Source: Polytrichum commune (taxonomy: Eukaryota > Streptophyta > Polytrichopsida > Polytrichales > Polytrichaceae). From it: 64,000 bases of DNA. The stretch is taken from assembly GCA_950295325.1 (NCBI GenBank), contig OX485804.1, forward strand, positions 64,076,533 through 64,140,532, read 5' to 3'. Below the pieces are notes generated by a model. The model worked only from the letters and a program-made list of their open reading frames with translations, had not been told where the DNA came from and searched no databases. Below are positions 37,837-64,000 of this stretch, one piece after another (position 1 is the first letter of the stretch; the number at the start of each line of letters is the position of its first letter). The position numbers and the translations under genes are program-made.

Positions 37837-40242
37837 TCAAAGAAGTGGATGAATTCTCCTATTCTTCATGTTTCTCCAAACAAGCATCACTGCATTCCAA
37901 TCAATGTATTCAACTGGAATATTTGCACATGAAATGCGCATCAAAGCATCCAAAGTTTCCAACTTCAAACATGTATGTAGATGACTTTTGATTAGGTTTT
38001 GTTTAGAAAAACCCCTCTCACATATTGCAGTGCTCACTAGAATCACCATAACTCTCCTCCACAAGTTACTCAAACCAGGCCAATTGATTGACCACTCTGG
38101 AGTGGTACATGCAAACTCCCAAGCTTCAAATAAAAACTTATTTGGGATCATCTCTCTCATGGTCTCCACCATCTCCAAACACTCACCCCGATACCGATCT
38201 TGTTCTTCTTCAGAAGTCTGAAACTTCACAAACAACCTTTCCAACCACTCTTCAGTAATACAAGTTCTCTCATCATCATTTGCGAGATAGAGATTGGAAC
38301 TAAAGAGCTTGCATGTATTGAAGATGCCTAAGTCTAGAAACCTGTTATTCAATGCATCCACCACCCTTTGTACATACTCTGCCCCAATGAATTTGCACTT
38401 TTCAATTGTACCAGGTCGCTCAGTAACACTCCCCAAATGCATTGCATAGGTTCTCTGGCCACCATCTGCAAGTGGATACACCATCTCCATAGAGGTTGCA
38501 CATGTCTCTAAAAATGGCCACAATACCTTTGAACCTCTTTCAAATGCTGCACCTCTAACTGTAAGAAAACGTCTACTCAAAACTGTAATACAAATGTTCA
38601 AGTGGCCTCCAATATGAGTAATATCCACATGGTCACTTTGGAACAACTTATTGAGTTTATTCAACTCAGTAAGAACATCCACAAGTAAACGTAGAAAAAA
38701 CTGGAACTGAAATGATGTCAGTTTACGATACCATGTTGGTACATCTTCACGAAAAGCTTGTAAAAACATAGGCATACAATCCAAAATCCGTTGCATCACT
38801 TGTCCACGAGATAACCATCGCACTCCATGTATGTGAAGAACAACTAATGGATCCATAGCAAATTCCAACATTAATTGATCAAACTTTGTCCGCCTCAATG
38901 ATGACCTTCCCACCCATGTGTATGCAAAGTTGGAGAAGTCATCCAACACATGTAGCTCCGGTGATGCCTCAGCTCCATCGCTAGCTGCAAGGGCATCCCT
39001 AAACAAGCAAGGGGACTAATTCATGAATATATTGCATTAAAAAAAATTAACATAAAATTAAATCTTAAAATGGAAGACTCACCTATGTGCAATACAATGC
39101 ACATTAATAAGTGTTGGTACATCAGCACGAAGTCTGCCTGCTAGTCCTTGTCTCACCCCAATCATAGAAGCCGCTCCATCAGTAGCTAAAGCCACCAGTT
39201 TCTCAAGAGGCCACTCCAACTTCTCCAATAAGTCCACCACATTCTTATAGAATATCTCACCTGTGGCTCGAGGAACACTTGACAATCCTACAAACTGCAT
39301 ACGTGGAGGCCCCAAGCCACCACGAGACAGACTGCAAACATACACAATCAAATGTTGCTCTAGACTACGATCAGTTGATTCATCTACAAGGAGAGAGATC
39401 ACTGGTGAATCTTTAACTTCTAAAAGATCAACTTCCCTCAAATGTTGTGAAATGGCCCACACAAAATCATACGTAGTTGGTCTGCTAGTATAAGCACCAT
39501 ACTCATCATTGACAGGCATGTCTGGAGCTCTCAGATGTCTAATTATCTGACACATATTCTCATACTGATTGATAGCCCTATCATTAACTACCAAATGATA
39601 CAATATCTTCATACAACATATAATTCTAGCACTCTCTGCATCAATAGCATTTACCACATGTCTAGCCATGGCAATTGCCTTAGGGTTATCTCTCACCGGT
39701 CTCCACCTCAGTATGGCATGAGAATGAAGGGTTGAGCCTTCATGCTCCTTCACGGCTGAAAGCTGCAACGATTCACAACCCTCTCTTTTGGTCCCCCATC
39801 GTGTGTTTTGACCACATGCTTAACATGTTGCACACTTCATGTAGGGCTTTTGGCTAGGCAGAGCAATGTGCATCAACCAAGGCCTTCCTTGGCGCCATAT
39901 GGGCATAAACTTCCTCCTCCTTGGAGGCCGCCCTCCACCACCATGGCCTGGCATGTGTACTCCTACACTATCCTCATCATCTGCACTATCATCTGGCTCA
40001 TCCTCCTCCCCCATCTCAGTGTCCTCCCTAATTTGATCATGTCCCTGAACGTCACCTTGCTCTTCCTCGACATTAGGAAAACCATGTGGGGAACCCCTAA
40101 CAGACGATTCTGACAACTCAGGCAATTCATTCCTCCCATCACTCAAAGTTTGAGAAGAAGAAGATGCCCTTAACATATGGAGAATGCTCAATTGCCGTGC
40201 ATCTCTTCTCTGTCTGCGTACAGCAGACACATGCAAAGACAT
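37837..40242 (-). pseudogene. hAT transposase, DUF4371 / ZNF862-like, one premature stop
   Basis: Two coding exons, 40242-39083 and 38998-37837, split by an 84-bp GT-AG intron (38999-39082) that keeps phase inside HCIAHR/DALA. A probable upstream intron ends in TTGCAG just before the start region. Order: acidic N-terminus; zinc-finger-like segment (YMKCATC, then ...KREGCES, H-X-H); DUF4371 part; DDE core with LLVDESTD and ALATDGAASMIGV; VRWLSRGQV; C-terminal dimerisation region with the third acidic residue in STAICERGFSKQN. All three catalytic acids are present. A TAA at 39820-39822, inside the zinc-finger segment, is the only break seen; otherwise the frame is intact to TGA at 37837-37839. 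Either a very young pseudogene or a read error. Confidence 0.85.
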
Positions 40243-52104: not shown

Positions 52105-52236
52105 TATAATGTATTGAAAATGAGGTACAACTTTCTATTTGGAGTGTCCCTTGTATATTTCCATTAAGAATGAGTTTCAATCATGATTTCAGAATGTCAT
52201 ATCAGGGAGTCTGAAGTCTTTCTTTCAAGAAGAAGA
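52105..52236 (+). pseudogene. Fragment of the 2.3-3.5 kb LINE family (zf-RVT end)
   Basis: Aligns directly with 3358-3482: TTGAAAATGAGGYACA, CCCYTGTATA, AATGAGTTTCAATCATGATT against AATAAGTTTTCATCACTATT, and CAAGTCTTTCTTTCAA against GAAGTCTTTCTTTCAA. It ends where the long LINE begins, so that LINE seems to have landed in or beside this older copy. Confidence 0.65.
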
Positions 52237-52395
52237 AAGAAAAGAAAAAATACGCCCGTATATTCAATACCGGCGTGACTTGTTGAGCCCGTTGGTCAAA
52301 TGCTAATCAGGGGTACCCTGATGGAGCATAGGATTACTTCCCCCGTTAGGGGGTGGGCTCTTAAATGATTTTAAGTGAGTTTAGGTAGCATTTTG

Positions 52396-55300
52396 TTATG
52401 GGGGTATGGGAACGGGGGTTTGTTTGTTATCTAGTTTTCTTTTGTTGAGGATAAGGTATGTGAGATATTTGATGGCGTTGTGGTGTATGTTCTTCATGAG
52501 CGTCTTGATGCTCTTGGTTGGTATTTTTAGGTTGGCTAGTTTTTCGATGGATTTTTCGTGAATGGCTCCTCTAACCCCTGCGGTGATGGTTATAAGGGGG
52601 TTGGTTTTCCAGCCTTGGTTTTGTATGGCGTTGATGAGTGGATCGTATTTGGCGTGTTTATGTAGTATAGCTTGTTCAGGGAATCTGTCGTGGCAGTATG
52701 TGAATTCTATGAGTTGGATTGTGGTCGCGGGGGATGGTCGTAGCGGTGTTTGGGATTGGTTTGGGGCACCGATGATGCATAGTATATCTGGTTTAAGTTT
52801 AGCGTGGCATTGGCATGGTGGTAGCGGGCATGTGCATTCTAGGAGCCAGTCGGGGATGGTGCGGTCCGGGGATGTGTTATTTATTCTTCCGGCGTTGGTT
52901 AGTGTGTAGAAGCGGGTATGTTTATTGGCTTGTAGTGTTTGTGTGATGAGGTGTACTGCCTTGTCATGTCTAGAGATTCTAAGTCCTTTTAGGTAGGGGT
53001 GTTCACATAGTGATAGGAGGTGTGGCCACGTGTCCCTATCATGTCTTTGGCATAGTGTGCAATTTGGGTTTTGGTGCGTGTTAGGCCAAAACATATGTTT
53101 TCTATGATTTCCCATGTATTGGGCATATCTGAATTTTAAGGTCTGGGATATTTGAGCGTCTGTTACGTGTTCGTTTTTCCAGAAGTGATTGGAGAGTTTG
53201 TGGTTGATTTGGTCGTTATTTAGCCATTTATCTACATAGGGGAATTTGTGTTTGGCTAGTGTGGCTTCTTGGTTTTTGTGTGTTTTTATTATAGTGGTGT
53301 GGAGGTTTCTGATGGCTCCATCATGTGTGGCGGTCGGGCAACTGGCTAGCCAATATGGTGTTGAGTGTGCGGTATGTATGCGTGGTGTGTTTTTTGGTTT
53401 TGTTTTTAGGTTACCTTGGTTGGCTAAGTTGTCGGCAATTTCATTGCCGATAATACCTGCGTGTGCGCGTACTTTGTGTATGTGGATGGTGTATGGTGTC
53501 CAATGGATATGGTGGACTATGGCTGTTATCAGTAATTTATCTGGGTGGTGGTGTTGTGATGTTGGGTGCCTAATGTGATTATTGATAAGGTATATGCTGT
53601 TTAGGCTATCGGTGAATATGTGGGTGTCTATTTTGGTGGTGCGGATGGTTTTAATAGCAATGAGTATGGCATTGAGTTCCGCTCTAAGGATGTTTTGGTA
53701 TCCCGGTAGTCTTTCGGAGATTTGGATGTTGTTGGGGTTGTATATGCTGGAGCCTGTTGTGTTGCCTTCTACTTGTCCTTCCGTGTTGATGGTTGGAGGG
53801 ATAAATGATCCGTCCGTGTACATGCATTGTTGTGGATGAAATTTTAGTGGGTGGATGTCGTAATATTTCATTGGGAGAGGTGATGTGGTATGTTGTTCGG
53901 TGTGTTGGGTTGTTTTGGGGGCATTTATCCATGTTTTGGAGAATTTAACTTTATATGGTGTGGTTGTGGGGGTGATTGGGTGGGTGTTTATATGTATGTT
54001 GAGTGTTTTTCGTAGTGTGTTTTGGAGTTCTTGTGGGGTTTGTATGTTTGTTGTGGGGAATTGTTGGTTGTGTATGCATATTAATGATGTGAGAGCCGGT
54101 TCGGTATATTGGTAATATTTTGGCCATTCCGGTGTGGGGTTATATTGTATAGAGTGTGGTGGTATGGTGGCCATTATGTGTGTGTCTGGTTGATGTGTGA
54201 TAGGTAATTGTTGTGGGGTCCAATCTTTGTGGTTGACTATAAGTATAGTGGTGGTGCTGGTGTTTTCTTTGGCGGCCATTCTAGCCCAGTGAATGGCTTC
54301 TAATGTTGATTTATGGTCTTTGGGAAAGGCTAGTCCTACCCCGTTCCATCGGGAGGATAGTGTGTGTCCTATTGAGCCAAATATTATATCTCGTGTGTGG
54401 GGTGAATTATATTGTGTGATTTGGGTGGGGCATGTGAGGGGGGTCGAATAGTATGCGTGTGTGATGTTGAAGGATTCTATTAGTATTTTGGTGATGCCGT
54501 GGGGTAATGTGTGGTGTAGGTTAGTTGGACTTATATTTTTTGGTTTTTTCTTGGGGAGTATGGTGATGTATCTTTGGATGAGCCAAAGTATTTCGGTTTC
54601 GAAGTCTTGTGGTGGGGGTTGAAGGAATGTGGTTAGGTGTGGGAGGTTGTTTTGGGCAAATTGGTTCCATAACCATTGTAGTCTATCGGTGTTGAGGGAG
54701 GCTATGAAGTTGCCGTCTTGGTCGTATATATTGGATATTGCGTCTTGTATTTGTATGGTCAGTTTGGTGGTATGTATGTCTTTATCCGGGTTCCTTTCTT
54801 GTGTGGATATTTTAAGGTTGTTGATTTGGAGGGGGGGATGGATGAATTTATTGTCTTTAGATTGGGAGTATGTGTCATGGTCTTTGTATCTTTGTGTGGT
54901 TTGATGTTTTATCCTTGTTATGTGAAATTGGTTTATGAGTAGTAGGTTGTGATCTAATAGGATGTTATCCGGGTGGAGGAGATTTTCTTCTAGTCTCCAT
55001 TGTTGTGTAGTGGTGGCAAGGGATTTCCATTGGCATAGGTATGCTCTTTTTATGGCTTGTGCCCCCCATTTATCTTTTCTAGTGATGTTTTTTTTCTTAA
55101 TGATGGATTGGATTGCGCGTCCAAGGGTGGGCTGTGTAGAGGGGATATGGTGGAGTGGTGTGTTTGGGTTTGTGTTTGGTGGTTGTAGGGGTTGGGTTAT
55201 ATGGGGTGTGGGAGTTGGTAAGGTAGGGAAGAGTGTTTTAATGTGTTGTAGGGCTACTTTGATGTTTTTGGGGATTTGTTTGTATCGATCTTGGAATTCG

Positions 55301-57414
55301 TCCGGGGTGAGGATGTCCATGGTATTTGGGTTTTGGATTTGTGCTATTGTTGTGATGCCGAACATATATAGTTTGTTTAAATGTTTTTGGATTGCCGATT
55401 TGGTGGTAGTTGAGAGGTTGGCGTATGATGAGGTGTTTCGCCATGCTTGTTCTAGGGGTGTTTTTTTAATGGGGAACGCGCGGTTAGCGGTGGTGACGTG
55501 AATTTCGAATTCTCTCTCTAATAGGAATAGTGTTCTAGTTATTGGTGATCTTAGACATGCTTGTTGTTTTAGTTTGGGGAGGTGGAGGGAGCCCCCGTAC
55601 ATGGCGGCTATGTATTTGACGAGTCCTTGATATATGATTCCTAGTTGACCCGGGTCGTTGAGGGCTTGTAGTAGTTGTTGGCCTATAGTGTGTACATAAT
55701 TCGGGAGAAGAGATGTTACATTTATGCCAAAGCTTTCATGTGGGAGGTGTGTGAGGATATTAGCGGAGCTTCTAGGTATATTACATATTTCTTTGGTTAC
55801 TTTGCTAATTATTTTATCGAGTTTTTGAATGTCCGGTTTGGAGAACGGAACGGCGTAGTACGCATAGGCTATACGAGGTTTAATTACGGTGTTGAGGATT
55901 TTTATTTTTTGTTTGAGGCTAGCCGGCGAGAGGGTGAGTAATTTGCATTGTTGTTTGGCTTTTTGGAGTATGATTTCTTTTTGGAGATTCCATTTAAGGG
56001 ATGTCATTAGGTTAATTCCGAGATAGGTGTATGGTTCGTTTTGCGTAAGAGTTGGGAAGGTTTTGGTTTTGTAAGTAATGTTATGGGATTGGATAAATGC
56101 TTTAAATATGGTGGGTTTAAGTTTGGATTTATTAGGGCATCCGGTGATGGCGCACTTCGAGAGATTTAGATCCATATAGGACCATTCGGCAAATTTTTGT
56201 AACTTTAGTATTTGCGGTTGAATGTGTTGGATGTTGTCCGTGATGATTGCAAGGTCGTCGGCGTATGCGGTAGTTGTGCACGTGGTTTGAGATGTAGTGA
56301 AATGATAGCCTAGGTTGTCTTTCTCTAACCATCTAAGTAGTGGTTCTAGGAAGATTAGGAATAGATAGGGACTTAAGGTATCACCTTGTATAGTCCCTCG
56401 GCTAATTGAGATTGGGAGAGTAGTTCCAAAGTGGCTACCGGAAAAGATTGTGGTGGAATTTTCGTATATGTTACCAATGATTTTTACCGCGTCTAGAGGG
56501 AAGCCTAGGTCTTCCATTATGGCAAGTAGCCTCGCATGATCGATTGAGCCGAAGGCGTTTTTGAAATCTATATAGGTTAGGTATATATCTTTATGGGTAA
56601 GTTTGGCGTCTTCGAGGGCGGCGGTGATTGTTTGTATTTGCCTTGCGGTATTCCGTTGTGGGCGAAAGCCCTCTTGACTAAAGTGGAGTATCCGATGTTG
56701 TTCACCGTAGCTTGTTAGTAGGGATGTTATGGTACTAGTAAAAATTTTATAGATAGTGTTAGCTAGGGCGATTGGTCTATAGTTAGCGAGGTGTATCGGA
56801 TCGTATTTTTTATGTAAGAGGATGGTTTTGCTTTGTTTCCAATAGGTTGGTATTTCTTGTTGGTTATAACATTGTTGGAAGAAGAGGAATAGTAACTCTT
56901 GCCATTTTGACGGTAGAGATTTGAGGATGTCGTTTGGGATGTTGTCGGGTCCGGGGGCTTTCCCGCATGTGAGTCTCTTAAGGCAATTGTCAAATACTTC
57001 CCGGGTAAATTGTTGGGTGATTTGGGCGTTGTGGTGGCCTCTTTTTTCGAGGACGATGCCGTTGTGGGTATGCCGTGGGTATTTTCGGATGGCACATTGG
57101 CATACGGTTGGGTGGTCTGTAGGGTCATCACAGAGGGGGGCTTGTCTCTGGAATGAAATTTGTTGGGTGTGATATATTTCGCTAGCTATGTTGGTTGGGT
57201 TAGTTATAATGTGACCTTGTGTGGTTTTGAGGCAGTCTAGGGTATTTGTGTTTATTGGGTGGAATATTCGTTTGTGTATGGTTTTAGGTTTGGAATTTAG
57301 TAGGGATCTATATTTTTTGATGGCATTTCTGCAATTAAGTGTTGTTTGCTTGGTGGTTATTTTATGGGCAGCAATTTTGGCGTTTTTACTGATGGTGGCT
57401 ATTTCCTCTATCCA
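52396..57414 (-). CDS. LINE ORF2, reverse transcriptase - RNase H - zinc knuckle part
   Basis: An uninterrupted run of about 1672 codons follows the TAA at 57415-57417. The first ATG is at 56517, but RT motifs lie upstream of it in the same frame, so it is not the true start. RT: CGKAPGPDNIPNDIL (about residues 150-164), YRPIALANTIYKIF, TYIDFKNAFGSIDHARL (about 282-298), SRGTIQGDTLSPYLF (339-353) and catalytic YADD (384-387). A long middle segment has no assigned domain (SSRWNGVGLAFP, AIHWARMAAK). RNase H at about 1197-1335 has YTDGS, RAELNAI, FTDSLNS, HKVRAHAG and NEIADNLA, so all catalytic acids are kept. The C-terminal knuckle reads CTLCQRHDRDTWPHLLSLCE. TAG/TAA end at 52396. Confidence 0.93.
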   Translation of the reverse strand, partial: WIEEIATISKNAKIAAHKITTKQTTLNCRNAIKKYRSLLNSKPKTIHKRIFHPINTNTLDCLKTTQGHIITNPTNIASEIYHTQQISFQRQAPLCDDPTDHPTVCQCAIRKYPRHTHNGIVLEKRGHHNAQITQQFTREVFDNCLKRLTCGKAPGPDNIPNDILKSLPSKWQELLFLFFQQCYNQQEIPTYWKQSKTILLHKKYDPIHLANYRPIALANTIYKIFTSTITSLLTSYGEQHRILHFSQEGFRPQRNTARQIQTITAALEDAKLTHKDIYLTYIDFKNAFGSIDHARLLAIMEDLGFPLDAVKIIGNIYENSTTIFSGSHFGTTLPISISRGTIQGDTLSPYLFLIFLEPLLRWLEKDNLGYHFTTSQTTCTTTAYADDLAIITDNIQHIQPQILKLQKFAEWSYMDLNLSKCAITGCPNKSKLKPTIFKAFIQSHNITYKTKTFPTLTQNEPYTYLGINLMTSLKWNLQKEIILQKAKQQCKLLTLSPASLKQKIKILNTVIKPRIAYAYYAVPFSKPDIQKLDKIISKVTKEICNIPRSSANILTHLPHESFGINVTSLLPNYVHTIGQQLLQALNDPGQLGIIYQGLVKYIAAMYGGSLHLPKLKQQACLRSPITRTLFLLEREFEIHVTTANRAFPIKKTPLEQAWRNTSSYANLSTTTKSAIQKHLNKLYMFGITTIAQIQNPNTMDILTPDEFQDRYKQIPKNIKVALQHIKTLFPTLPTPTPHITQPLQPPNTNPNTPLHHIPSTQPTLGRAIQSIIKKKNITRKDKWGAQAIKRAYLCQWKSLATTTQQWRLEENLLHPDNILLDHNLLLINQFHITRIKHQTTQRYKDHDTYSQSKDNKFIHPPLQINNLKISTQERNPDKDIHTTKLTIQIQDAISNIYDQDGNFIASLNTDRLQWLWNQFAQNNLPHLTTFLQPPPQDFETEILWLIQRYITILPKKKPKNISPTNLHHTLPHGITKILIESFNITHAYYSTPLTCPTQITQYNSPHTRDIIFGSIGHTLSSRWNGVGLAFPKDHKSTLEAIHWARMAAKENTSTTTILIVNHKDWTPQQLPITHQPDTHIMATIPPHSIQYNPTPEWPKYYQYTEPALTSLICIHNQQFPTTNIQTPQELQNTLRKTLNIHINTHPITPTTTPYKVKFSKTWINAPKTTQHTEQHTTSPLPMKYYDIHPLKFHPQQCMYTDGSFIPPTINTEGQVEGNTTGSSIYNPNNIQISERLPGYQNILRAELNAILIAIKTIRTTKIDTHIFTDSLNSIYLINNHIRHPTSQHHHPDKLLITAIVHHIHWTPYTIHIHKVRAHAGIIGNEIADNLANQGNLKTKPKNTPRIHTAHSTPYWLASCPTATHDGAIRNLHTTIIKTHKNQEATLAKHKFPYVDKWLNNDQINHKLSNHFWKNEHVTDAQISQTLKFRYAQYMGNHRKHMFWPNTHQNPNCTLCQRHDRDTWPHLLSLCEHPYLKGLRISRHDKAVHLITQTLQANKHTRFYTLTNAGRINNTSPDRTIPDWLLECTCPLPPCQCHAKLKPDILCIIGAPNQSQTPLRPSPATTIQLIEFTYCHDRFPEQAILHKHAKYDPLINAIQNQGWKTNPLITITAGVRGAIHEKSIEKLANLKIPTKSIKTLMKNIHHNAIKYLTYLILNKRKLDNKQTPVPIPP

Positions 57415-57417
57415 TTA

Positions 57418-58122
57418 GGCTAAATTTGTGGTATTTGTAGGGGGTGGGGGGATGGTTATGTTGGTGATGAGTTGGAGGGCTTTAATGTCGGGGTGGTTGC
57501 CTATGCTATCGGATGGGTGTTGGCATGTTACTCGGATTGCCTTGCGAATGCTATGGTGTATGGTGAGTTGTTTTTTCCAAGCCTTTTGTTGTGTGCGGGG
57601 GAAGAACCCGCCTTGAATTCTTGCTCTATGCGGGAGTGGGGGTGTAGGGTACGTCATGCATGTTTTCTCAATGCATTGACTTAGGGAGTCAATGATATTT
57701 TTAAATTTGTCTTGTGTGTTCTTCCATTGTGTTTGGGTGAGTTGGACTTGTTTTAGTGTGTTAGTGAGTTCGTCTATTGCTAGGTTTTGTGATTCTAGGA
57801 AGTTGATATGAAGTTTTTGAAGGTTGTCGGGGGATATGGGGCATGTGATGCGGGGGTTGGTTGTAGGGGGGTGGGGTTCTTTAATTACTATGTGATTGGG
57901 GGTTAGACTTAGGTGGACTGGGTAATGGTCGGAATTCTGATTGAGGTTGGTGATTGTATGACTTAGGAGGGTATTTTGGTTTGGGAGGTTGGAGTAGAAG
58001 CCATCTATATGGCTGGTTGAGGTGTAGTTATTACCTCCTTGTCGTGTGAAGCTAGAGTTGTTGTTAATTACCTTGAGTCCTAAATTTGTTATGAAGTGAG
58101 CCCAGTCTTGGTCGTTTTGAGT
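57418..58122 (-). pseudogene. LINE ORF2, C-terminal endonuclease part and linker
   Basis: This piece is in the same frame as the RT part and open from the homopolymer at 58123-58132 to the TAA at 57415-57417. It holds the last endonuclease motifs SHIDGFYSN and NSDHYPVHLSL, the catalytic SDH of APE-type nucleases, then a linker with HRARIQGGFFPRTQQKAWKK. Upstream, the rest of the endonuclease is in another frame, one base away; downstream, only a single stop separates it from the RT. Ancestrally these three pieces were one frame. Confidence 0.85.
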
Positions 58123-59882
58123 GGGGGGGGGGAGGGGATCCCGTTGTGTGTTCTACCTTTAAGTAATATGTCACGGTTGAAATCTCCGGCTAGGATGATG
58201 TGGTGGGTGGGGTGTTGTGTTAGTATGTTTTGGATTTGTTGTTGGATTTCAAGTATGAAATGTACGTCTTGAGGATGGGTTGGCATGTACATGTTTAGAA
58301 TGAGTAGTGGAGTGAGCGGTTTGTTTTTTATGTTTATGACTTGTAGGTAGGGTGAGATATGACTTGGGATTGTAATTTTGGAGATGTTTTCGTTGTTGTA
58401 AATAAGTTTGGGTATCATGGTTAAGATGCCTCCCTTGGCATGGGTGGGGCCGGCGTACTTGTTGTGCTTGTGGTTTGTGTCGTTAGAATTATTGTATAGG
58501 ATTTTGTAGTTGTGTAGTTTCTTGTCGATATATGTGGTGGATTTGAGTTTGTGAAGTTTAGTTTCTTGTATTAGGATAATGTGTGGGTTTGTGTGGAGTG
58601 AGCGTGTGAGTTCTTGGATTCCCGGAAGGCTGGAGCTAATACAACCTGTGTTCCAGGTGATGATGTTTAGTGTGCTAGTTTGGGGGTTAGTGGTGGTTGT
58701 GTTAGGGGGGGTGGATTGGCGGGTATGTGGGTGGGTGGGGGTGTGGTGGTATCCTTTGATTTTATGGGTGCATTTGAGAAGTTCTAGGAGTATTTTTTGT
58801 GGGAGGTAGGGGGCATCTTTTCTTAGGTTTGTGAGGTTGGCGGGTGTTCCGTTGGCTATTAGTTTGTTAATATGTTTGTATGTTTGGGATATGGTGTTGG
58901 GGGGTGTGTCGTGTACGGGGTGGGTGGATATGGTTTGTATGTTAGGGAGTGTATTTGGTTGTATGTTTTGTAATCTTCTTAGTATGGCGAGGCATCTTGG
59001 GTCTAGCTTATTGGTCATTAGGTGGTTACATTTTTGTGGAATGGGACTATATGCGATGATGAATGCGTATAGTTGGTGTTCTAGTGGGTATTTGGCTAGG
59101 AGCGAGCTATGGTTGGTTAGGTGGGTTAACTTTGGAGGTTGATGGATTGTACGTGTATGGGTGAGGTGTGGGGCAAATAAGTCTTCTAAGTGTTTGTATT
59201 GTGTTTTGAGGGATAGGGTGTTTGGTATGAAGTATTGTTTTTGCCGTAGGGTATAATTGGTGGGGAGGTTTCTAAGGATATGTGTGAGTGGGCCCGGGTT
59301 GGTTTCTATGTCTCCGCATAGGGCTAGGAGTGTGGTGTTATTCCATGAGTAGTATTTTGTGATTTTGACTTTAGGGGTTTTTAGATGAGTGTGTGTGAGG
59401 TGGTAGAAGTTGCCTATGTGTAATGTGGGTTGTATAGGCGGGATGGGGTGGTAGGGTATGTTCGTATATTGTATGTGATATGTGTGGTGGTTTGAGTTAT
59501 GTGGGTTGTTATGTTGTGAGGAGGTGATTGAGGATTTATGGTTGAGTTGAGGTAGGTGGTGTGGTTGTGTGTGGTTTGGTTGTGTGTGGTTTGGGTGTTG
59601 GTGGCTATGTGTTGTTGTTAGGTTTTTGTTGTGTTGTGTTGGTGTTGGTGTGTTGTGATATGTTTGAGGAAATGTGAGAAGGATGGCAACAATTATTATT
59701 ATGGTTGTGGTGTATGTGTGGTATGTGGTTTTGTATCCTTTGAAGTGTGTGGGAGAGGTGTGGTTTGAGTGATTGTTGTTTGTATTGATATTTGTTGTTG
59801 GGGTTTGTGATTGGCGTGTGGGTGTTGTTGTTTGTGCGTGTGGTATACATTTGATGGGCAAATTTGATATGTGGGGAAGATG
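58089..59882 (-). CDS. LINE ORF2, N-terminal region with 2A-like motif and APE endonuclease
   Basis: Open from after TGA 59883-59885 to TAA at 58089-58091. No ATG occurs before the 2A-like motif; the earliest near-cognate codon is TTG at 59861, used here for numbering. Residues 1-170 are Thr/His/Asn/Pro-rich with one hydrophobic stretch (TTTIIIIVAILLTF, 51-64). Residues 178-191 read LLALCGDIETNPGP. Residues 192-395 form a helical region of unknown role. The APE-type endonuclease starts near 397: IITWNTG (Asn404), IQETK (Glu433), AKGGILTMI, NMYMPTH and AGDFNRD (Asp560, Asn562). The frame leaves the endonuclease at the C10 run; the remaining motifs continue in the neighbouring frame. ORF1 ends 190 bases upstream. 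Confidence 0.9.
   Translation of the reverse strand, partial: HLPHISNLPIKCIPHAQTTTPTRQSQTPTTNINTNNNHSNHTSPTHFKGYKTTYHTYTTTIIIIVAILLTFPQTYHNTPTPTQHNKNLTTTHSHQHPNHTQPNHTQPHHLPQLNHKSSITSSQHNNPHNSNHHTYHIQYTNIPYHPIPPIQPTLHIGNFYHLTHTHLKTPKVKITKYYSWNNTTLLALCGDIETNPGPLTHILRNLPTNYTLRQKQYFIPNTLSLKTQYKHLEDLFAPHLTHTRTIHQPPKLTHLTNHSSLLAKYPLEHQLYAFIIAYSPIPQKCNHLMTNKLDPRCLAILRRLQNIQPNTLPNIQTISTHPVHDTPPNTISQTYKHINKLIANGTPANLTNLRKDAPYLPQKILLELLKCTHKIKGYHHTPTHPHTRQSTPPNTTTTNPQTSTLNIITWNTGCISSSLPGIQELTRSLHTNPHIILIQETKLHKLKSTTYIDKKLHNYKILYNNSNDTNHKHNKYAGPTHAKGGILTMIPKLIYNNENISKITIPSHISPYLQVINIKNKPLTPLLILNMYMPTHPQDVHFILEIQQQIQNILTQHPTHHIILAGDFNRDILLKGRTHNGIPSPPPLKTTKTGLTS
59289..59330 (-). other. 2A-like ribosome-skipping motif
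   Basis: Codons for LLALCGDIETNPGP. It matches the strict core D-x-E-x-N-P-G-P, with the Gly-Pro pair (59294-59289) where skipping would occur, and the hydrophobic Leu/Ala/Cys-Gly context usual upstream. If active, the ribosome would release a protein of up to about 190 residues and restart at Pro191 to make the endonuclease-RT protein separately. Known in some animal and trypanosome LINEs; activity here is untested. Confidence 0.9.
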
Positions 59883-60072
59883 TCACTTTATTTATAAATA
59901 AATAGAGGCTACATATAATTTGTATGCTAGTCGCCCATGCATGTGCTATTGCCGTACTAATCATGTATGTAGTGTTGGTCTTTGTGGAGACTTGGTGAGG
60001 GGCTTCGGTATTGGGCTCCCGAAAAGCCCGGTGGCACTCCATGTGTGTTGGGTTCTCCCGCATAGGCATTGA
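59883..60072 (-). other. ORF1-ORF2 linker with overlapping stop/ATG
   Basis: The ORF1 stop is followed at once by an in-frame ATG (TGATCAATGCCTATGCGG). That frame (MPMRENPTHMECHR...) stays open to TAG at 59605 and overlaps the 2A/endonuclease frame by about 280 bases, so a single +1 shift would join them. The linker also holds a short GGGCT/AGCCC stem near 60005-60030. Confidence 0.6.
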
Positions 60073-63000
60073 TCATTGGTACGTTGGATGCTTGGGGAGT
60101 CTTGCTATGTTGGTGTGGTGTGGATCCGGTGAGGTGGCGGCGAGTGTTTGCATAAGGTTATGTATGCGATTGTTGGAATGTTGAAATTCCACGGCCATGG
60201 CACTCATGATGTTGTGGATGTTCATTGCATGAGTCTTGAGCGTGTCCGTGGAGGCTTCTACTCTCTTGTCCGTGTTGAGGTTAATATTGTTGGTGAGAGT
60301 GGTGAGCTTACCGTCAACCGTCTCCACCAACTCCTTGATGGTTTTGGTGAAGAATTTTTCGGATACCAATGGTGATGAGGCGGCGGTGTTGCTCATGGCT
60401 TGGGCCTTTTGTGCAATGACTTCTCGGACCGGGGCATGTGCTAAACGGATAGCCATTTGGTTTGGGTCGGTGCCGTCTATGCTTCGTTTGTGGGGGATGA
60501 AATCCACTCTCCGCCCTAGGATGTAGGTAGACTTTCGTATCCATTCCGTGTAAACGGCCGCATTCAAACATTGAATGTGGCACCAACCGGCTTGGCGATC
60601 GTCTTCTTGGTTGGATTGGTGTCCGAAGGTGATGCCGGTGATGTTCTCCTCCCCGAAGAGCCGCTTAAGTGCTTTGGTGATGGACGATTGGGATTCCCGT
60701 TGCGGTAAGTTATTGGCTACAAGAGTGGTACTAATTCTAAGTTCCGAAAGATTACCTATATCTTTGTCCTTAGTGATGCTCACTCTTAGCCTTTCGGAAC
60801 GGTAGGTGAGCCCATTGTTGAGGATTTCATCTCTTGCCTCTTCGGTGGTGAGGGTGATGAAGGCGAAGTCCTTCTCCTCGTCCGCCTTAGTAAGTGATAG
60901 AATTTCGACTTCTCGGCCTTCGTAGTAGGATTCGCTCATGACGGTACGGAGTATGTCTATTGCCGTGCTACCTCTTAGTGATGCGCCCTTGAGATGAAGT
61001 CTCATGTTCTTGGCCTTCGTAATGAGTTCAAAGCCCTTCTCTACCTTGCCTATGATGCGTTCACCGTCTCCCATTGTCATTACAAAGGCGCGTTCTCCTC
61101 GGAGAAGAGCTAATCCGTCTCTCTTTGGGTGTTGGAGGTGGATTTTAAGAAATCCGGTCCAATTCCTAGTTACCGTGTTGATGCCTATATCAATCGGGTT
61201 GGTGTAGGTAGAGCCTAGGGGAATGCTCATGTGCCTTAGCCTATCCATGCATGCGGACTTGACTTCTTGTCGGCTAAGTGCTTTGTGATCTCCGTCAAAT
61301 CTAATGGTGACATGGAACCCTTCGGCGAGGCCCGTATCTTGTGAGACTTTTTCGTACATGGGTATTTGGGTAAAATGAAGATGTTGGCCGGGCACCGCGT
61401 CGGGACGTTCGTTGGGGTAGAGAGTTTGTGTTGTCCGTGGGAAGGCGCGCCGGAGCGATCGGAATTCTTGTACTTCGGTGATGGGTGTACCAGTGACGGT
61501 GAACTCTTCATCCGTGCGTTTTTCTTTTAACTCTTTCTTACCTTTTTGGAGTAAGAGGGCCTCTTGCATGTGGAACCCTATCCACATTTGTCCTACCATG
61601 TCAATGCCAAGGGTGTTTAGTCTCTTGGGTTTTGAACGTGAAGTGGGCGGTGTGGACTTACTTGGGATTGTCGGGGTGGATGTGACGGAGTAGTCCGTGG
61701 CTTTCCGTCTCTTGGTGTTTTGGCTTTCCGAGACGTCCTCTAACCGTGGGTTACGGTATGCCAATGTTGGTGGTGTGCTTTCTCCGATTTGGACGGTCTT
61801 CCATGGGGTTGTTTGTGCCGCTTGTATGGAATCTCCTCCCAATGACACTTGGAGGGAGCTACCTCCGCGTTCCGGGGACACATTCTCGAGTTGGGCATCC
61901 ATGTCGAGGTCTTCATCGGTGCCAAAGTCATGTGAAGGTTGTGATTTTTGAGAGACCGGCGGTTGAGCTGAGACGTGTTGCCGGAATTCATGGTACTTGG
62001 TCTCGAGTGACGGCTGACGGTTGGTCGGCTCCATGTTGTCTTGGTGACGGGACTTGCTTGCTGGTCCCAAGGGCTTGCAGGGATAAGACCGTTGGGGGCT
62101 CGGTGGTGTCGTATCCTCCTCTTTGCTTGCTGTGCTATGGCCGTTAGTCGCTAGGGGGCTTCTCCTTGGGTCGTGGCCGTTAGCCTCTAGGGTGCTGCTC
62201 TTCGAGTGGTGGTCGTTGGTGTCTCGGTGTAGTGTCTGTATGCGAGCGGGGTAGAGTCTTTGGGCGTCTGCACCTGTAGAAAGCGAGGTTCTTGGTTTGT
62301 GAGTGTCGGGTCTGTTAGAGGGGAGAGTGCTTTGTGTAGAGCCGTGGTTCTGTAATGTCGCTCTACTGCTGTAGGAGATGGAGAGGGGTGTATGGATTGT
62401 GTCTTGAAAGCATGAAAGTTTGTGGTGTGGGTAGCATACCTGTTGTGTGTGCTGGCCGTCGGTGCTGATGTGGTAGTGTGTGGGTGCAGGTGCGGCTTGT
62501 ATCCTGGCGAGCGGGGGGTGACTGTCGAGTGGGTGGTGTCTGTGTCTGTCCGCGGTAGGTTGTATGTCGGAGGAGTCACCTGTAGATGGCATAGCGGGTG
62601 GTAAGTAGGAGTGGGAGTTATGTATGAGATATTTCTGTAGTGCATATATGGTGTTGTGTAATCTGTAAAAAGGAGAAGTTGTGTGTGTGGGGTTCGAGGG
62701 GCTTACTGTAGTGCAGCTGCGACGTCCGTGGGTGAGGTCTGTGTTTTCGGGGATGCTGGTGGTATTGCTGGGGGTGGCATGGCCGATTCTGCTCTCTCGT
62801 TCGTCGGACGATGCCCTACGATGGTGTTGCGGAAATGATGTAGGGGGAAGAAGAGTGCTCTGGGTGTGGTGCGGCTGCGACTGCTTCGGTGGGTGGATGT
62901 GTTGTGGCGAATGGGTGTTTTGAGGAGAGGAAGAGAGGGGTTTAAGTAGGTTGTTTATGCTTTGTGAGTTTCCGTTTTGAGCGTCTGTATGTGTTGGGGG

Positions 63001-63732
63001 GGGGGGTGAATGTTGGCGGCATGTGGGTATGTGTATTCGGCTTACAGCCGATTGCAAATTGTGGTTTGTGTGAGCTATGTGTGGTTTTTTTGGAGTGTGT
63101 GTTCGGTGGGTTGGCGGCATTTCATTGTCGTATGTGTGGTATGCTCCTGGGATAGTCGCTTGGTGAGCTGTGGTGGGTTGTGTCAGTTGTTGAGTGGCAG
63201 TTGTGCTTGCTGGAGTCGGTGATAGCTTCTGTCTGTTTTGGGTATATATGTATGAGTGTGATTGGGGGTATAGGGATTCGTTGTGAGGGTATTGGTGGGT
63301 GGATTGTATGAGGTGTTGTAGCAAGTGGTATGTAGGTATTATGGGGGTAGGATTCGGTTGGGGGCTTTGTGTGGGAGGTCTGCATTTTCTGTGTGTTACT
63401 GTGGTCATGGTCCTGGGTGTCTTCTTCGCCGAGGTGGTGGAGCAGTTGCGGTGTGCGGGGGGTTTCTCTGTGGGGGGGCATTCTTCCGTTACAAGGTCTG
63501 GTTCGGAGCGATTGGTGGTTGGAGGGGCGATCTGTCGGTGGGCGAGTTGTGATCGCCAGAAGCCAGGTATGGTTTTCTGTATGGGGGGTTGGGTGGTGTC
63601 TTTGTGTAGTATGATCTGTGTGTGGAGTGGTTGCGCCTGTGATCTTGTGTAGGTTGTATTCGGTCGTGATGTGATGCTTTGTGTGTTTTTGTTGTTGTGT
63701 GGGGGTTTTAAGGTTTGGGTGTACCTTTGCAT
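60073..63732 (-). CDS. LINE ORF1 protein (1219 residues, RRM-like)
   Basis: Starts at ATG 63732 and ends at TGA 60073-60075, with no break. The N-terminal half (about 1-600) is low-complexity, rich in Thr, Pro, His, Ser and Gln. A basic stretch near PKRLNTLGIDMVGQMWIGFH opens the ordered half. Two segments look like RRM folds: one ending FAFITLTTEEARDEILNNGL, the next LVANNLPQRESQSS ... GWCHIQCLNAAVYTEWIRKS ... ILGRRVDFIP. The C-terminal 120 residues are helical, suggesting self-association. No CCHC knuckle was found. LINE ORF1 proteins coat their RNA in the cytoplasm; that role is inferred. At 1219 residues it is far longer than usual ORF1 proteins. The unbroken frame argues for recent constraint or a young copy. 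Confidence 0.85.
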   Translation of the reverse strand: MQRYTQTLKPPHNNKNTQSITSRPNTTYTRSQAQPLHTQIILHKDTTQPPIQKTIPGFWRSQLAHRQIAPPTTNRSEPDLVTEECPPTEKPPAHRNCSTTSAKKTPRTMTTVTHRKCRPPTQSPQPNPTPIIPTYHLLQHLIQSTHQYPHNESLYPQSHSYIYTQNRQKLSPTPASTTATQQLTQPTTAHQATIPGAYHTYDNEMPPTHRTHTPKKPHIAHTNHNLQSAVSRIHIPTCRQHSPPPPTHTDAQNGNSQSINNLLKPLSSSPQNTHSPQHIHPPKQSQPHHTQSTLLPPTSFPQHHRRASSDERESRIGHATPSNTTSIPENTDLTHGRRSCTTVSPSNPTHTTSPFYRLHNTIYALQKYLIHNSHSYLPPAMPSTGDSSDIQPTADRHRHHPLDSHPPLARIQAAPAPTHYHISTDGQHTQQVCYPHHKLSCFQDTIHTPLSISYSSRATLQNHGSTQSTLPSNRPDTHKPRTSLSTGADAQRLYPARIQTLHRDTNDHHSKSSTLEANGHDPRRSPLATNGHSTASKEEDTTPPSPQRSYPCKPLGPASKSRHQDNMEPTNRQPSLETKYHEFRQHVSAQPPVSQKSQPSHDFGTDEDLDMDAQLENVSPERGGSSLQVSLGGDSIQAAQTTPWKTVQIGESTPPTLAYRNPRLEDVSESQNTKRRKATDYSVTSTPTIPSKSTPPTSRSKPKRLNTLGIDMVGQMWIGFHMQEALLLQKGKKELKEKRTDEEFTVTGTPITEVQEFRSLRRAFPRTTQTLYPNERPDAVPGQHLHFTQIPMYEKVSQDTGLAEGFHVTIRFDGDHKALSRQEVKSACMDRLRHMSIPLGSTYTNPIDIGINTVTRNWTGFLKIHLQHPKRDGLALLRGERAFVMTMGDGERIIGKVEKGFELITKAKNMRLHLKGASLRGSTAIDILRTVMSESYYEGREVEILSLTKADEEKDFAFITLTTEEARDEILNNGLTYRSERLRVSITKDKDIGNLSELRISTTLVANNLPQRESQSSITKALKRLFGEENITGITFGHQSNQEDDRQAGWCHIQCLNAAVYTEWIRKSTYILGRRVDFIPHKRSIDGTDPNQMAIRLAHAPVREVIAQKAQAMSNTAASSPLVSEKFFTKTIKELVETVDGKLTTLTNNINLNTDKRVEASTDTLKTHAMNIHNIMSAMAVEFQHSNNRIHNLMQTLAATSPDPHHTNIARLPKHPTYQ

Positions 63733-63894
63733 GCCTGTGTTGATGTCTGCCGTGGCATGTGGACGTTCTGTTCGATCTTCTTCGTGGCCGGGGTGGGTCG
63801 AGTGGGTGTTGGGCCATACGGCATAGTGTTGTTGTCTTCGAGGCGGTGGAGGCCACGGTTGTCTGCGATCGGCATTGGGTGTCGTCGATCTGAT

Positions 63895-63966
63895 GGAGAG
63901 CGTGGTTGGCGTCGACCTCGGGGTGCTGGTGGAGAGCTTGGGTGGCGTCGATCTCGGGGTGCTGGC
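63895..63966 (-). repeat. 36-bp tandem repeats in the LINE 5' region
   Basis: Units 63895-63930 and 63931-63966 differ at about five positions (GGAGAGC.T..., TGGCGTCGAYCTCGGGGTGC). A partial unit follows at 63967 and a fragment precedes at about 63877-63894. Some LINE promoters are built from such repeats; the array continues toward the window edge. Confidence 0.75.
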
Positions 63967-64000
63967 GGGTGGCGTTGGAGGTTGGTGCGGTGTGTTAGTG

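Follow-up and report, generated by a model that had tools for sequence, protein, structure and literature searches.

Putative StopGo (2A) sites, single and in rows, in a Dualen/RandI-like LINE family of Polytrichum commune

Introduction

Natural StopGo (2A) sequences have been described mainly from viruses. For mobile elements, Odon 2013 and Heras 2006 are said to describe 2A-like sequences of animal APE-type LINEs and of the trypanosome L1Tc/ingi elements. The LINE family presented here shares with these elements a DxExNPGP-type motif that precedes the APE endonuclease in the same frame, and differs from them in its plant host and its C-terminal R2-like motifs; its tandem sites and its H, Q or K at the E position are described here for the plant family.

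In domain content the family recalls the Dualen/RandI LINEs of green algae, which are described as holding both APE and PD-(D/E)XK nucleases (PMC3636483, PMC4640811). The likeness covers APE, RT, RNase H, R2-like C-terminal motifs and a non-poly(A) tail; such a tail is noted for RandI, which a 2013 table places under green algae, not flowering plants (PMC3747384). Our family is unlike the algal one in its plant host, in a PCIF1-like stretch and in that no cysteine protease was found; its 2A sites are described here for the plant family.

Two further systems combine comparable parts. Some picornaviruses have several 2A-NPGP sites (PMC11512398) and share with our elements several StopGo sites per open frame, whereas here the carrier is a LINE and the modules are stacked ORF2 starts, some of different lineages. 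Sea urchin NLRs have N-terminal 2A signal sequences, and membrane targeting of the unskipped product is reported for them (PMC4981915); there as here an N-terminal hydrophobic sequence accompanies a 2A, although in our family the hydrophobic segments lie apart from it across a long linker.

As for plants, 2A sequences are reported to skip in plant cells (PMC4981915), and a 2026 survey found plant viruses to show no evidence of StopGo use, though StopGo works in plants (PMC12846837). A full-text literature search, which did not reach the main LINE-2A studies, returned no 2A in a plant LINE. To our knowledge no natural StopGo has been described from a plant before. LINEs with 2A have been described before; what appears to be new is a plant LINE that uses it, and does so with stacked sites and in mosaic elements.

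Results

The window, a 64,000-nucleotide stretch of Polytrichum commune DNA, encodes on its minus strand, at 59289-59330, the peptide LLALCGDIETNPGP, which the earlier note had read as a 2A-like site. The translation bears this out: the core DxExNPGP is present as DIETNPGP, in agreement with the 2A pattern (D/G/C/N)(V/I)ExNPGP, and the preceding LLALCG, claimed as the right upstream context, is of the L-rich kind with (A/S/C)G as the last two residues ahead of D; a viral survey divides such hexapeptides into classes, one of which was tested and active (PMC12846837). From the end of the motif to the APE domain there are about 210 residues, close to the 200 or so proposed.

D[V/I/M]ExNPGP occurs once in the window and in none of 100 shuffles. 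Across the genome searched (407.8 Mb in 64 contigs, nearly all of it in seven contigs of 42 to 78 Mb), a narrow pattern with S, P, T or A at p15 has 201 matches against 0 in the reversed control, and D[V/I/M]xxNPGP has 460 against 5. Used as query, the 376 residues after the motif match at least 110 places, and each of the seven large contigs has some of them. A chance match, or contaminant DNA, has practically no probability left: nothing was found in its favour, the counts already refute it, and the homology on every large contig and the target-site duplication of the window copy, described below, speak against it too. Chance and contamination were accordingly rejected on the genome counts, the shuffles and that duplication.

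The site belongs to a LINE copy that occupies 52229-64000 (-) and reaches its 5′ end 538 bp past the window (window-equivalent 64538). Its 3′ end, located at 52229 by comparison with two near-identical copies, follows a T/C-rich tail; directly after this TTTTTTCTTTTCTTTCTTCTTC tail comes TTGAAAGAAAGA, at 52217-52228 (-), the 3′ copy of a target-site duplication that recurs exactly before the 5′ end. Because a perfect 12-bp duplication thus stands at both ends, we regard the window copy as a full-length insertion of 12,310 bp. Its order is ORF1, leader, 2A, a conserved stretch, APE endonuclease, RT, PCIF1-like stretch, RNase H, CCHC finger, RHD motif and a PD..E..K block. Across 52229-64000 (-) the coding strand is strongly A/C-rich (A 0.37, C 0.34, G 0.13, T 0.17), which sets it apart from the remainder of the window; this composition may account for the long opposite-strand open frames there.

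ORF1, without a Pfam match, runs over 60073-63999 (-), open past the window end, and stops early (60073-60075) by comparison with its relatives. ORF2 starts at ATGATTAG (59957-59964, -; ATG at 59962-59964), which overlaps the frame of the original ORF1 stop as ATGNNTAG, an overlap common to the better copies L055, L056, L074 and L075; L053 belongs to a second subfamily and has its first in-frame ATG some 100 bases past the ORF1 stop. The proposed N-terminal leader with a hydrophobic segment is borne out by two of them, MISTAIAHAWATSIQIICSLYLFIN at 59890-59964 (-), in another frame than the 2A of this copy, and TTTIIIIVAILLTF at 59670-59711 (-). Best 19-residue Kyte-Doolittle means for stretches in or near the leader start are about 1.4 to 2.2 in the window subfamily (L020, L034, L044, L046, L056, L074) and weaker, 0.33 to 1.41, in the second (L053, L058, L063, L065, L067, L068, L070). 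A conserved context ending in ..YYSWNNTT (59331-59456, -) leads into the 2A, directly followed by a conserved region without a Pfam match (58662-59288, -) that is the start of the predicted downstream product. Next come the APE-type endonuclease (58173-58661, -; PF03372, E 4.4e-7), which goes on in another frame at 57415-58152, the reverse transcriptase (56008-56802, -; PF00078, E 4.5e-32), the PCIF1-like stretch (54352-54612, -), weak here with an E of 3.7e-5 under the curated cut-off, RNase H (53413-53829, -; PF00075, E 4.2e-14), the CCHC finger and RHD motif in R2-like order (52966-53061, -), and a PD..(26 residues)..E..K block that is a candidate restriction-like endonuclease core (52648-52791, -), before the ORF2 stop, TAA at 52396-52398 (-).

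The description of this ORF2 as otherwise well kept holds only in part. The window copy has at least four breaks: the early ORF1 stop at 60073-60075, an ORF2 start and a 2A in different frames, a frame change in the endonuclease at 58089-58152, and an in-frame TAA at 57415-57417 (-). In L053 with the adjoining L073, ORF1 is open and a 2919-codon open frame includes the same DIETNPGP and ends at the ORF2 stop. A 2A in a single open frame with protein on both sides is seen in L053 with L073 and in the arrays treated below, the leader of the window copy being frame-shifted.

That a LINE of a plant carries a 2A-like site before its endonuclease was correctly seen; the element is not the usual plant L1, and its site is often one of several. 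By its domains the LINE appears Dualen/RandI-like rather than a typical plant L1, since it joins an APE endonuclease, an RT nearer R2 than L1, an RNase H and C-terminal R2-like CCHC/RHD/PD..E motifs. The APE match (PF03372) is above the cut-off in both the window copy and L053, and RT (PF00078) and RNase H (PF00075) are present by Pfam. When the RT was compared with PDB entries, none of them a plant L1, R2 reached 87 bits and human L1 ORF2p 47; in place of the poly(A) tail and L1-type RT of plant L1 elements we thus find a T/C-rich tail and an RT that scores nearer R2 than human L1.

The C-terminal order CCHC, RH(D/N), PD is one that we take to be R2-like. Fourteen C-terminal stretches were fetched, L086 and L087 giving no match, and L077, L081, L082, L084 and L088 were left out of a nine-row alignment in which, at 43-84% identity to the window, CCHC, RH, D, E and K are invariant; among 14 aligned rows the D of PD is absent in L077 and L088. 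Against the R2 structure the C-terminus gives an E of 0.22, over the finger/RH part only; a Pfam search for a C-terminal restriction-like endonuclease gave no match, and a single-sequence fold of this region has a pLDDT of 31.6. Because of the missing D in two of the 14 rows and the low-confidence C-terminal fold, we do not assign full Dualen/RandI membership. In RT phylogeny Dualen/RandI stands between the early RLE and the APE groups, and a cysteine protease domain is one of its features; Pfam gave no match to one in L053/L073, where a divergent domain could escape. A scan for relatives in viral contigs found none.

Between RT and RNase H, the PCIF1-like stretch is clearest at L073:3591-3977 (C1:40948591-40948977, +), with PF12237 at E 1.8e-12, above the cut-off, and PDB PCIF1 at E 5.9e-4. 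PCIF1 is the cap m6Am methyltransferase, with NPPF as its catalytic motif. At the NPPF position L073 has HPPN and the window, read by eye, FPKD, so the stretch is probably inactive; in the literature text searched, no PCIF1-like domain in a LINE was found.

Beyond the LINE, the window holds a UDP-glycosyltransferase and, at 37837-39819 (-), hAT-like transposase remains in two adjoining open stretches. The genome has 58 chlorophyll a/b-binding matches, which together with the UDP-glycosyltransferase mark it as that of a plant, and at C5:1751760-1846160 fourteen uninterrupted light-harvesting gene matches of equal score lie within about 95 kb. A moss is likely, given that 8htu and 7xqp, the best ordinary PDB matches for the light-harvesting protein, are moss entries; the top match, 9vfj, is a larger LHCI chain.

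The earlier note had named related copies in the same genome without the motif at this site as grounds for refuting its reading, and we find the opposite: NPGP stands in 34 of 40 copies, including L019, where it sits in another frame than the downstream match. These 40 were fetched from the at least 110 matches (rows 2 to 42 by score, one left out in which the match begins 22 residues later), picked by homology downstream of the motif and regardless of the motif itself; being the best-scoring rows, they lean towards well-kept elements. The six losses read NPGS (L022, L049), NPGA (L024), NPGQ (L050), NLGP (L040) and, in L023, a scrambled site; L022, L023 and L024 have no stop within the matched stretch. 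Nine further rows of the second subfamily, 38-41% identical to the query, keep NPGP in seven and have NLGP in two. Over 41 aligned rows (L019 and L052 misplaced there by frame choice or coordinates, and their sites read separately), conservation amounts to 37 to 39 rows for each of G, D, I/V, N, P and G, and to 35 for the last P. The 73 NPGP sites of the fetched loci, whose amino acids are fixed by site selection and whose third bases are free, are spelled in 26 ways at the DNA level, and every base is found in third position in the G codon as well as in each of the two P codons.

Among 63 D..NPGx motifs from 49 loci, p12 is D in all, even though the pattern also allowed N and G, and p14 is E in 28, Q in 20, H in 12 and K in 3. 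In the sections of the viral survey that treat p14, H is over 95% active, E14Q is credited with 56% or 26% activity from earlier studies, and for K no test is given (PMC12846837). Between related copies (23 pairs, non-independent, 21 of them with leaders), the leaders have a pN/pS of 0.67 overall, or 0.40 if the five pairs of at least 80% identity are taken alone; the ratio is 0.48 for the 56 codons surrounding the 2A and 0.27 for the 37 that follow it, a pattern that fits a leader translated and loosely constrained.

Several observations count against StopGo: p14 is E in only 28 of the 63 motifs, Q being partly active in those studies; NPGP is lost in six of the 40 copies, three of which have no stop in the matched stretch, and the sample leans towards well-kept elements; constraint around the 2A is weaker than after it; and the window 2A is out of frame with its own ORF2 start. 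The peptide might instead form a junction, structural or cut by a protease, where the ORF2 enzyme begins, with NPGP kept incidentally, as would suit a core E that is often replaced, even by K, and a region after the motif that is more constrained than the codons surrounding the motif, several columns there being as invariant as NPG. Yet the best-kept residues, G, D, I/V, N, P, G and the last P, are those on which StopGo depends. The L-rich (C/S)G context agrees with a viral class that was tested, p14=H is among the variants known to be active, and the module is repeated within single frames; we judge such a junction improbable. The motif is, we think quite likely, a working StopGo site, and the plant LINE family to which it belongs is Dualen/RandI-like and carries an APE endonuclease.

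The site is often repeated. Fifteen of the 40 copies have two or three D..NPGx motifs within the 1.3 kb fetched upstream (L013, L024, L025, L026, L030, L032, L033, L035, L039, L041, L042, L045, L047, L048 and L050), and L074, selected for its site cluster among the first 100 of the 460 genome places listed, has four sites in one open frame of 841 codons. Over 17 loci (the 15 plus L074 and L075), 19 of 21 gaps between sites are divisible by 3; a single stop occurs in the 2937 codons of the in-frame gaps, compared with 286 in the 5874 codons read in the two alternative frames. L054, L055 and L056 denote copies already represented as L025, L031 and L041, and the gap count, module tree and selection test were run without them. 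The array loci are partly related; if relatives, grouped by motif and spacing, are counted once, 14 or 15 events remain, and every one of these has at least one in-frame member. For both out-of-frame gaps, those of L042 and L045, a relative with the same arrangement is in frame (the L030 type, and L041, 98% identical). In L036 (C6:12965952-12967372, -), a deletion has seemingly fused two 2A sites, leaving GDIQPNPGPISHITKNPGPP.

In the loci read, an internal 2A is followed by an ORF2-start remnant of a few to 60 or more residues, by eye, and then by the next leader and 2A. A tree of 77 modules has few columns, and we use only its starred forks, which pair internal modules with the final modules of other elements: the internal module of L013 with those of L031/L038/L043, those of L039 and L050 with L051/L052, the second module of L035 with the finals of L074 and L075, and the second module of L074 with a group containing L027, L028 and L034. 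The label L023_F1 is wrong, marking an internal motif some 500 bases before the scrambled final site of L023, and its fork with the first module of L035 is excluded; the entry L036_F1 derives from the fused site. Exchange also extends to whole 5′ parts. L074 (C1:66444000-66449000), with its row of four sites, and L075 (C1:13718600-13722000), with a row of two, are chimaeras of a window-lineage ORF1 and an L053-lineage ORF2: their ORF1s are 56% and 76% identical to that of the window and 29% and 26% to that of L053, whereas at the ORF2 start they share 48% and 52% identity with L053 and 32% with the window, and whole 5′ parts have therefore been exchanged between lineages. On these comparisons the internal 2A modules read as former ORF2 starts, some from other lineages, stacked by 5′ recombination, and we infer template switching in reverse transcription as the simplest route to the exchange.

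Discussion

For the window subfamily these features suggest the following order of events. ORF1 would be translated first, and ORF2 would begin at the ATG overlapping its stop (ATGNNTAG), probably by termination-reinitiation. Ribosomes would next make the leader with its hydrophobic segments, and with the last leader residues in the exit tunnel the leader would be released at NPG/P; a new protein would then begin with proline and hold the endonuclease, RT, RNase H and C-terminal domain. Membrane targeting of the unskipped product, by analogy with the sea urchin NLRs, is possible. The 2A would thus set the N-terminus of the enzyme whatever precedes it. By 5′ recombination one ORF2 start, made up of leader, 2A and a remnant that can reach 60 or more residues, has repeatedly come to stand in frame ahead of another, and rows of two to four have formed.

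The sites may skip and their rows nevertheless be neutral recombination debris without function, which we hold to be possible at a little short of even chances: the internal modules do resemble truncated ORF2 starts, some of other lineages, and some arrays (L042, L045, L050) already hold frame breaks or a stop. Set against debris are the 19 of 21 joins in frame and the single stop in all of the in-frame ones; open frames alone could come from inherited coding DNA, in-frame joins could not. These joins fit tolerance through skipping and are no proof of benefit. We give an even chance to StopGo serving as a modular joint, by which captured 5′ ends, even those of other lineages, would be tolerated because each 2A frees the enzyme from whatever precedes it, in-frame rows of up to four sites would arise, and the 2A would drive mosaic evolution, making this the first natural StopGo polyprotein in a plant.

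As a high-copy plant LINE family built on StopGo, these elements would supply hundreds of naturally varied sites, including those with H, Q and K at the E position. StopGo in the family would add a translational step to plant retrotransposition, and the family would show a recoding signal making a mobile element tolerant of chimeric 5′ ends.
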